From: Micractinium sp. NFX-FRZ
Taxonomy: Eukaryota; Chlorophyta; Trebouxiophyceae; Chlorellales; Chlorellaceae
Direction of reading: 5' to 3'
DNA: 64,000 nt
Assembly (NCBI GenBank): GCA_029339195.1
Contig: JAPTJF010000047.1
Location: 62,001 to 126,000, forward strand
A program made the position numbers and the translations under genes. Shown here in pieces: positions 34,801 to 63,013 of the stretch (the stretch's first letter is position 1; each line of letters opens with the position of its first letter). A model generated the notes under the pieces. That model made no database searches, had not been told where the DNA came from, and was given only the letters and a program-made list of their open reading frames with translations.

Positions 34801-37800
34801 CGCCGGCCTCGGTTGCGCGCCACCCACCACCCACCCTTTCTTGCCCCCATCTCACCGGTAGAGGCCAATGAAGACGGGGATGGTGGCCAGGGAGGGCAGG
34901 CAGCCCGCCAGCGGGTTCACGCCCGCTGTCTGGTACATCTTTGCCGTCTCGACCTGGAGGAGGCAGAAAAGTTGGACCATTCGTTAAAGACAAAACAAAA
35001 AGCCTGCAGTCAACCGCTCTACCACTGAGCTACACGACCTAACTCCCTATTTGGAGGTCGCGTCCGGGATCGAACCAGAGACCTGTTGATGAATGCGGGC
35101 ATCCTAGAAGGACAGCGCTGGTCCAATGCAATTTCCGGCGGTACCGATTCCGGAGAGCTCCGAAAACGCCATTTTCCAAAATCTTCCGAAATATCGCAGA
35201 TACTGTCCCGTTCTCGCCCAATTTGCACCCCAGGAGGCTGCCCGGAGCGGCATGGAGGGGGCGGCACGTGCCCCCATGCACACCAGCGGGGGGCCGGGGG
35301 GCGGTGCGCCGCATGTAGTGACAGGAGCTACCAGGCAAGCGCTTTTGGAACATGGATCACAGGGACAGCACACAGGCACACCAGAGACAGACGCTCAGGG
35401 GGGCCGAGAGGGGCGCGCCCGGTGTTTCGACACCCCCCCAACTTCTGTGCCACAAGTTCCACGACACAGATGTACTTTGCGTGCTTGCGCCCAAATCCAG
35501 CACGATGCGTGCACAGCTGGCATGCAAACCAAACAAGAAGAGGCGCGCCAACGACAAAAACGAGGGCGCAACCCGCATGATGAGCATGAAGTATGCTCAT
35601 GGCTGGGAGCCAGCAAGTCGAGAGCCAGCAAGTCGGGAGCCAGCAAGTCGGGTGCCAAGCACTGTTTGACCGGCTTTGCGGCGGTGGAGTGTACATCTGA
35701 AGCTGCCGCGGGGCGAAGAGGCAGCCACCCCAGAGACAGTGCGCAACCCTCACTCATTGGGCAGCCCAGGTTGTAACCCACGCAAAAGTCGAGCCTTTGA
35801 CCGCAGCCCAGCGCTCGCCAACCAGCCAGCCAGCCGCTCTACCGACGCGCACGCCCGGCCGCTGGCAGGGCACGCCCCACAGCGGCAACTTTGGCGCACT
35901 GCCTGGGAGCTCACCCCTGATTGTAGCCCCCTCCCAAACAGACAGACAGACGGACAGACAGACTCTAGACTCTACACCCGGCCACCCCCCCGCCCACCTG
36001 CCGGCGCTCCGGGTCTGATTTTAGCCCCCTCGCAGGCAGACGGACAGGCATTCAGACAGACAGGCAGACAGGCAAACACACACAACGAGCCTAATTCTAG
36101 CCCGCCCCCCCGCCCACCTGCAGGCGCTCCGGGTCGTTGGCGTACTTGGCCTGCAGGTCCTTCACCTTGGGAGCCAGAGCCTGCATGCTCAGCGTGGACT
36201 CCACCTGCACGCGGCGTTGCCATGGGGGGAGGAGGCAAGGTTGGGAGGCACAGGGTCAGACTGGTGACACGCAGGCTGCGCACGCCGCGGCAGGCGCCTG
36301 TGTGCTCCGTGCCGTCTCCCCCTAGGGGAGGACGGAGCAAAAAAGGTGAAGGTGAAACAGCAGCGGTGCACCGGGCACAATCGTGACCAGCAGCCGCACC
36401 TGGTGGCCCAGGTTTCCGCCGCAGACCAGCCCCATCTCAGGGCTCCTCAATTCGCCCCACACCCTCCTCCTCCCAAACCGTTCCCACAACACGCAACTCT
36501 TCACTCACCCAACCCAACCCACATCCACCGATACCCACTCCCCTACCCATCAACCCACCAGCTCTCCTAGCAGGCATATGGCCGCCTTGGCCTGAACCCC
36601 CAACCCAACCACCATTTTCTCCGCCCACCACCACCCCTCGGACACCACCCCACACACTCCCCAACCCCACCTGCTTCTTGGTGAGCGGGTACGTGGCCAC
36701 CTTGACCAGCACGGTGAGGAAGATGATGGCAAATCCATAGCTGCAGCAGCATGGGGAATGCCAGACAGTCAGGAGGGAGGGAGGGAGGAAGGCAGGAGGA
36801 CGGATGGGGTTTGTGGAGCAGCATGGGCGGCACTTCTTGCACCTTACCGGGCACGCCGGCCTTCAGCGAAACCCGCCTCACGCCCCTGCCCCCTGCCCCC
36901 ACCAAAAGCCACGCGCGCAGCTCGTGGCGACGTTGTCCAACGTCACATGCACCTCGCACGCCGGCCTTCACACCAAAACAATCCTCACACGCATCTCCCC
37001 ACTGCCGCCCAACCATCAAAACACACGCAGCTTCCACGCCCCACGCACCTGTAGGGCACGCCGCCCTTCGCCAGCCCGCCGTCCAGCCCCCCCACACACA
37101 CAAACAGGTAAGCACACCCACGCACCAGTCACTTGTCGCACCTGTACGGCACGCCGGCCTTCTCCAGCCCGCCGTCCAGCACCTTGAGGAACTGCTCAAA
37201 GGCGCCCGAGAACGCGCCAAAGAAGCCGCTGTTCTTGTCGACCACCTCGGCAACTGCCTCGCCTGCGGCAGCGGGGTCCACGGAAGCCGCCGCGTCGGCG
37301 GCCGCGCTGACCGCGCCGGCGGCGGCGGCGGCGGCATCGCCCACTTGGCCGGACAGCTGGTCGGCGGCGCCCGCCAGCTGGTCGGCAGCATCGCCGAGCA
37401 GGAACAGGCGGGTGGAGAGGTGGGCGGCCAGGCTGTGGAAGGCGGAGGGGACACTGCAGGCGGAGGAGGAGAGGGGGCGCCAGGGGGAGGCAGGCAGGGG
37501 AGCAGGCGGGGAGTGAGCCAGGCGTGTGGTGGCTGGGCGGGGCCGGGCAGGGGATGGGGGCGTGGGCGGAGAGCCGCTGGGAGATGGGGCTGGAATGCGC
37601 TCCGAGGACGCAAGCCGGCAGCTGGGCGGCATCTGAGCAGGAGCAGCAGCTGGTGCGAAGCCTGACAGCCTGGCAGGCGGCAGCTCAAGCCCAGCCGCAC
37701 GCTCAGGGCCACCATCACCACAGCAGGTCAGCGTGGCAGCGGCCCACAGGCCCTGGCTATTGATCCTGCCCACCCAATGCACCCAAGCAGGCTTTCACCA

Positions 37801-61911: not shown

Positions 61912-63013
61912 GCTTTACGTGGCACCGCCCCGAGGGCCCCGCCCGGAAAGCCCGCCGCCACGGCAACGAAATGAACACGCTCCGCTGCTGGCTCGAGTCA
62001 GTCTAGAGTCGCCCCCCCCCAGCTCTGCCCCCGCCGCTTGTCCCCCAACGTCCGCCGCCCCCCCACGCTCCTCTTGCTCCGCTGCCTTGCTCCGTTACTT
62101 GCACAGCCGCGCCTGTTCTGCTGCATCTTTTCCCTGGCGTGTGGTGTCGCATTGTCGCCAGCGTGGCTTGTCCCCCTCCCCCTGTCTTTCCTCGTATCCC
62201 CTCGTTCCCTTCCCAACCTCAGACGCCGGCTGCTCCCCAGCGGCACGCTCTGCACGTGGCGGGCATGCTGGCCTTGCTGGCCTTGATATTTGCCGCACCA
62301 CCACCCTCCCACCGGGTATTGTGCAACAGAGGACGTAGCACGAGCAGCGCAAGGCTCAAGGGGGGCGGGGCGGGGTGGAAGTGGGGGGCATGATGTGCAT
62401 TTGGAGCGGGGTTAAGAGGGGTGGGTAGACACGGGCTGCGTGATTGAGCAGGGCCTGGCAGTTGATCCCCCTCGCTCGCTCACGGCAGGTAGATCGAGGG
62501 AACGCCTGTGCGGCGGGGAAGGAGACTGGGGGGGAGGCATTCAGACAGCACACAGAGATCAGGGCCCCGTATTCAGATGGCATCGAGAGCGGGAAGCATC
62601 CATGCGACATGAGGCCAGCAGGAACCGGCCTAGAGCGGGGGCTTGCTTGATAGCTCATGGCAAGGCCGCTGGAGGCTCCACGTGTTGCATACCAGTAGCC
62701 AGCCGACCATTTTGCAGGCTTCGGCACAGACAGACCAAGGCAGCTCTGGTGAGGGCGATCAGAGGGCTTGACCGGTGCCCCCCTGTCCCTATGCAAGCCC
62801 GCAAGGAGGACACCTGGCGATGGCGGAGGCACAACAAGTGGTGCCCCCTTGCGAGTGCTGGGGCCAGCTTGCTAGATTACACATTCTGCTCCTAGATTGC
62901 TCCCTGCCTTCGCCCAAAGGCATTCACCTCCGCCTACACCTCCGGCCTGGCTGGGGTCGCTGTTAACTCAGAGCGGGCCAGTGCCACCGTCCGCGGGCTC
63001 GCCCTGCATTGCG
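61912..63013. other. 3' UTR of the carrier gene and upstream region of the last gene
   Basis: About 1.1 kb without a supported gene. The first few hundred bases are C/T-rich and are probably carrier 3' UTR; no TGTAA was found. Confidence 0.4.

Follow-up and report, generated by a model that had tools for sequence, protein, structure and literature searches.

A probable working tRNA-Cys(GCA) gene in circularly permuted order, with two permuted paralogues, in the Chlorella-clade alga Micractinium sp. NFX-FRZ

The window analysed here is a stretch of 64,000 nucleotides from contig JAPTJF010000047.1 (C47) of the Micractinium sp. NFX-FRZ assembly GCA_029339195.1, covering positions 62,001 to 126,000 of the forward strand; coordinates on C47 are those of the window. 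On its minus strand lie the two halves of a tRNA-Cys(GCA) in swapped order. The 3' half (35055..35090; tRNA positions 38-73, with the discriminator U73) comes first and pairs with the 5' half in the anticodon and acceptor stems. A 15-nt intervening sequence follows, made up of a CCA directly after U73 (35052..35054), which is absent at two paralogues on contigs C180 and C376, and of 12 further nucleotides (35040..35051). The 5' half (35004..35039; positions 1-37) carries the anticodon GCA, and two bases past its end begins a TTTTT run (34997..35001), presumably an RNA polymerase III terminator; T-runs also follow the 5' halves at C180 (TTTTT) and C376 (TTTT). Immediately ahead of the 3' half stands a leader motif, GCATTC (35091..35096), which reads GCAATC in both paralogues. 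All 21 stem pairs form (five anticodon, five T, seven acceptor and four D), and the rejoined halves give a full cloverleaf with eukaryotic consensus bases. A 3' half upstream of the 5' half on one strand, with the junction at 37/38, is the arrangement of type II permuted tRNA genes. On re-reading the sequence, the swapped order, the coordinates, the four stems, the anticodon, U73, the encoded CCA, the 12-nt gap and the TTTTT run were all as an earlier, sequence-only reading of this DNA had described them.

Neither ARAGORN nor Rfam at gathering scores calls a tRNA in the window as encoded, a silence to be expected because the halves stand in swapped order. The 72-mer rejoined at 37/38 is called tRNA-Cys(gca) by ARAGORN, in line with the earlier reading. 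A home-made scan for the architecture (break at 37/38, short variable loop, spacer below 80, at least 19 of 21 pairs) gave a single candidate in the window; 7.68 Mb of first-order Markov sequence modelled on the window contained none, which argues against a chance resemblance. Two weaker scan matches elsewhere, with scores of 19 and 20, drew on pieces of ordinary tRNA genes and were discarded.

The whole assembly (66 Mb in 838 contigs, including two organelle-like contigs, C837 of 74 kb and C838 of 120 kb) was searched with a pattern for each half, allowing up to three mismatches. The 5'-half pattern matched exactly three loci, on C47 (the window), C180 and C376, and the 3'-half pattern matched the same three and nothing else. 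All three are permuted tRNA-Cys(GCA) genes; their spacers of 15 nt (window), 14 nt (C180) and 37 nt (C376) fall inside the 1-74 bp range of type II permuted genes given in the excerpted text of a review (PMC3978253). Apart from the leader bases and the T-runs, which are found at 3/3 loci, the flanks differ from one locus to another. That the gene occurs on three contigs, with different flanking sequence each time, already contradicts an assembly artefact, and we regard an origin of the signal in either chance or assembly as next to impossible. A DNA search with the window locus found the C180 copy and missed the C376 copy, and the exact 5'-half pattern had no match on viral contigs.

The earlier reading had also raised the question of another, ordinary tRNA-Cys(GCA). 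By the two half patterns (up to three mismatches) none turned up outside the organelle contigs, where a very diverged gene could escape such patterns, and the siblings found are all permuted. The rejoined normal-order sequence, used as a DNA query, returned only split halves, at C180 and C376; its silence on normal-order genes carries little weight because it also overlooked the window copy, known to be there, and the 3' half at C376. A search of the assembly with the RF00005 profile, in which 63 of 639 candidates were scored, gave 20 matches outside C837 and C838 among the 64 listed, and according to ARAGORN not one of these 20 is a Cys gene. An ordinary tRNA-Cys(gca) is present on the organelle-like contig C837 (3900-3970, ARAGORN). 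On C838, the rbcL translation differs at 3 of 475 residues, counted on the alignment, from PDB chain 8q04_A, which we take to be Chlorella sorokiniana Rubisco; a psbA translation differs from 9hd7_A at 1 of 353, counted likewise.

When the three genes are aligned on the permuted cloverleaf, all 63 stem cells are paired. Both sides have changed in 6 of the 21 pairs, four of them in the acceptor stem, one in the anticodon stem and one in the T stem; the acceptor and anticodon stems are those that join the two halves. Sliding the partners by 1-3 columns lowers the paired fraction to 27.0 to 50.8% and leaves no double change, and one of 500 shuffles matched the observed pairing. The covariation is clear yet small as evidence, because only three related sequences contribute to it. 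The six bases that directly precede position 38 (GCATTC, GCAATC and GCAATC) agree across the three genes at 5 of 6 columns, as against 2 of 54 columns further upstream.

These comparisons bear on whether the window copy is a decayed remnant, either a permuted gene that no longer works or the adjoining halves that survive from a tandem pair of tRNA genes. It is the odd one out at four of the six doubly changed pairs (C376 is so at the other two) and alone has CCA after U73, as a decaying copy might. Its stem changes, however, all keep pairing, the unpaired tRNA positions of the three genes are identical save for one T-loop base, and it retains both the leader motif and the T-run; as for a tandem leftover, neither half pattern found outer halves. 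We consider decay very unlikely. The sequence-only reading, a circularly permuted tRNA-Cys(GCA) broken in the anticodon loop, is instead strengthened by two permuted paralogues with compensatory stem changes; these, together with the lack of a normal-order copy outside the organelle contigs by the half patterns, make a genuine gene broken at 37/38 well supported.

The same reading had laid weight on the encoded CCA, and here it did not hold up. In the two other permuted Cys genes U73 is followed by AAT and CTA, and inspection by eye of the 20 tRNA genes listed from outside the organelle contigs showed CCA after none. Since it occurs in one of three permuted Cys genes and in 0 of those 20, the window CCA is most likely a coincidence, which is the simplest reading, and we rejected it as a functional feature. 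In the excerpted review text, CCA is described as not encoded in eukaryotic genomes but encoded in both archaeal permuted genes (PMC3978253).

Minimum-energy folds of all three precursors extend the anticodon stem, past a 4-nt/1-nt internal loop, into a helix of the leader GCA with U33-G34-C35. All four arms appear in the folds of the window copy (with 4 of 5 T-stem pairs) and of C376 (in full); in the fold of C180 the set of arms is incomplete. The helix core at the junction measures 3 to 5 bp, and the strict hBHBh' form is not seen in these folds. In these models the leader:anticodon helix thus resembles a relaxed bulge-helix-bulge with a conserved 3-bp core, and they do not show a canonical bulge-helix-bulge. 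The pairing of GCAGGC with GCCCGC proposed earlier for such an element is present at five of six positions, but both paralogues keep no more of it than the GCA:UGC core. The folding energies of the precursors are ordinary against shuffles (z of -0.41 and -1.07 for two cuts of the window copy, +0.70 for C180 and -1.14 for C376), and, being no better than shuffles, they were set aside as support for a permuted gene. Visual inspection of the 60 nt upstream showed no evident TATA-like or AT-rich element. The splicing-endonuclease domain PF01974 is found above cut-off at two loci of the assembly.

The window gene lies in sense within a putative 1164-nt intron of an ALB3/YidC-type gene (34954..36117, minus strand, from the exon borders). 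The joined exon translations around it match PF02096 (60KD_IMP; E 7e-34), which we take to be the YidC/Oxa1/ALB3 family. The C180 copy (9317-9232) is likewise in sense, flanked by two exon-like stretches of a beta-galactosidase-like gene (10579-10442 and 9148-9065) that match the beta-galactosidase small chain. In both recognisable host genes the permuted tRNA has the orientation of its host and is followed at a short distance by an exon-like stretch. The permuted tRNA might accordingly be cut from the intron of an ALB3-type pre-mRNA instead of being transcribed by RNA polymerase III, and both positions fit such an origin, the 5' half of the window copy ending 50 nt ahead of the inferred 3' splice site. 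Against it, T-runs follow all three 5' halves, no Pfam family was recognised in four translations around the C376 copy, and two of three copies in introns may be chance. A host-intron origin appears improbable, if somewhat less so than decay of the window copy.

Transcription by RNA polymerase III remains the preferred course. The gene order, pairing, covariation, copies, T-runs and endonuclease domains are seen in the sequence; transcription and each processing step are inferred, most likely along the following lines. RNA polymerase III would make a linear precursor consisting of leader, 3' half, spacer, 5' half and a trailer up to the T-run. Folding would bring the two halves of this precursor together by pairing, with the leader GCA base-paired to the anticodon region. 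Cleavage at 37/38 by the tRNA-splicing endonuclease and joining of the ends by a ligase would yield a circle, from which RNase P and tRNase Z would excise the spacer at the acceptor stem; CCA would then be added to the tRNA end. The pathway, with its circle, RNase P, tRNase Z and CCA addition, is taken from other algae as set out in the excerpted review (PMC3978253). We put at roughly 0.92 the probability that 35090-35004 on the minus strand is a functional permuted nuclear tRNA-Cys(GCA) gene, and that it and its two dispersed permuted paralogues together probably supply all the cytosolic tRNA-Cys of this Chlorella-clade alga. Since all three nuclear Cys copies found are permuted, the cell must probably reorder RNA to use cysteine.

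Permutation extends to a second isotype. On the plus strand of contig C25, a Ser pattern found a permuted tRNA-Ser(AGA) at 204645-204731, composed of a 3' half (204645-204688), a 6-nt spacer and a 5' half (204695-204731); its seven acceptor, five anticodon and five T-stem pairs all form. An identical second copy lies at about C25:205430 on the minus strand. The two copies occupy the opposite arms of a perfect inverted repeat of 310 bp, either genuine or produced by the assembly, and ARAGORN recognises neither of them. The assembly thus holds at least five permuted genes of two isotypes (Cys and Ser). Two ordinary tRNA-Ser(GCT) genes on C714 also sit in a perfect inverted repeat, of 370 bp (arms 87-456 and 561-930), a palindromic arrangement, real or an assembly effect, shared with the C25 locus. 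Patterns for the 5' and 3' halves of initiator tRNA-Met, and a pattern for tRNA-Asn, matched nothing in the whole assembly; these zeros do not show that permuted genes are absent, because the patterns found no ordinary gene either. An initiator tRNA-Met gene must exist, and may be permuted elsewhere, split or diverged. Among other unusual loci, a 91-nt tRNA gene at C21:132004-132094 (minus), on which ARAGORN is undecided or gives SeC with an intron, has a loop CTTCTA that suggests an intron-bearing Arg(TCT). A tRNA-Leu(TAA) at C5:370915-371000 (minus), on a large contig outside C837 and C838, has a D-arm that looks to us plastid-like or bacterial.

If the three permuted genes do supply all nuclear tRNA-Cys, a common kind of freshwater green alga could not live without permuted tRNA processing, and an essential tRNA would escape standard annotation in such algae. 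With their different stems and flanks and their conserved leader GCAWTC, the paralogues form a natural test set for the needs of the splicing endonuclease and for what it can do without. The isotype and break shared with prasinophytes bear on the question of an ancient as opposed to a repeated origin of permutation in green algae. A permuted tRNA-Cys(GCA) might already have been present in the ancestor of prasinophytes and core chlorophytes, have replaced the ordinary gene in this lineage and now exist as three copies that carry all cytosolic cysteine decoding, some of them from introns of protein genes, so that translation would depend on a circular RNA step. We hold this history to be doubtful. 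An old shared Cys permutation is made less likely by Chlamydomonas reinhardtii, described in the excerpted review as having no permuted tRNAs (PMC3978253), and by Prototheca wickerhamii, Helicosporidium and A. protothecoides, in which, according to the part of the source drawn on, all tRNAs except Sec are encoded, on tRNAscan evidence (PMC7941945).

Permuted tRNA genes of several algae can be compared with those described here, and Table 1 of the review, as excerpted, lists 34 of them (PMC3978253). In the red alga Cyanidioschyzon merolae the gene order and T-stretch are as here and the junction is at 37/38 in 6 of 11 genes; that alga differs in having several break positions and no permuted Cys, and in a TATA-like element upstream of most genes, where none is evident by eye here (PMC3978253, excerpted text). 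The same text reports an upstream TATA-like or AT-rich element for most C. merolae genes and for some green algal genes (PMC3978253). The C25 genes share isotype, anticodon and the 37/38 break with the Ser(AGA) of Micromonas pusilla and of the Bigelowiella natans nucleomorph, whose spacers are 64 and 5 compared with 6 in the C25 genes (PMC3978253, as excerpted); they differ in occurring as two copies in the inverted repeat, possibly an assembly effect. Type II permuted Cys(GCA) genes are listed for three prasinophytes, Ostreococcus lucimarinus, O. tauri and M. pusilla, with isotype, anticodon, break and gene order the same as here and with spacers of 26, 38 and 12 bp, respectively, against 15, 14 and 37 here (PMC3978253, Table 1 as excerpted). 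The listed prasinophytes have one such gene each, that of O. lucimarinus with an extra 5' half downstream, whereas the present alga has three paralogues that have diverged, and two of these seem to lie within introns. In the trebouxiophyte Auxenochlorella UTEX 250-A, permuted tRNA genes were detected after tRNAscan-SE had given an incomplete set, according to the part of the report available (PMC12636532; preprint PMC12633428); the likeness to the present alga, also a trebouxiophyte, is drawn without isotypes. Among the literature matches listed, in a search whose scope left subscription journals mostly outside, there was no further report of permuted tRNAs in trebouxiophytes. The sequence-only reading had expected a permuted gene in a Chlorella-type alga to widen the known range. 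Permuted genes are indeed present here, but the widening is weakened by the Auxenochlorella genes already in print (PMC12636532) and by the prasinophyte Cys(GCA) genes (PMC3978253), both as excerpted. Judged from its sequence, the window gene belongs to a known kind and is very probably working. What it adds to the known systems is a Chlorella-clade alga in which every one of the three nuclear Cys genes found is permuted, with diverged sequences and a conserved leader motif among them.
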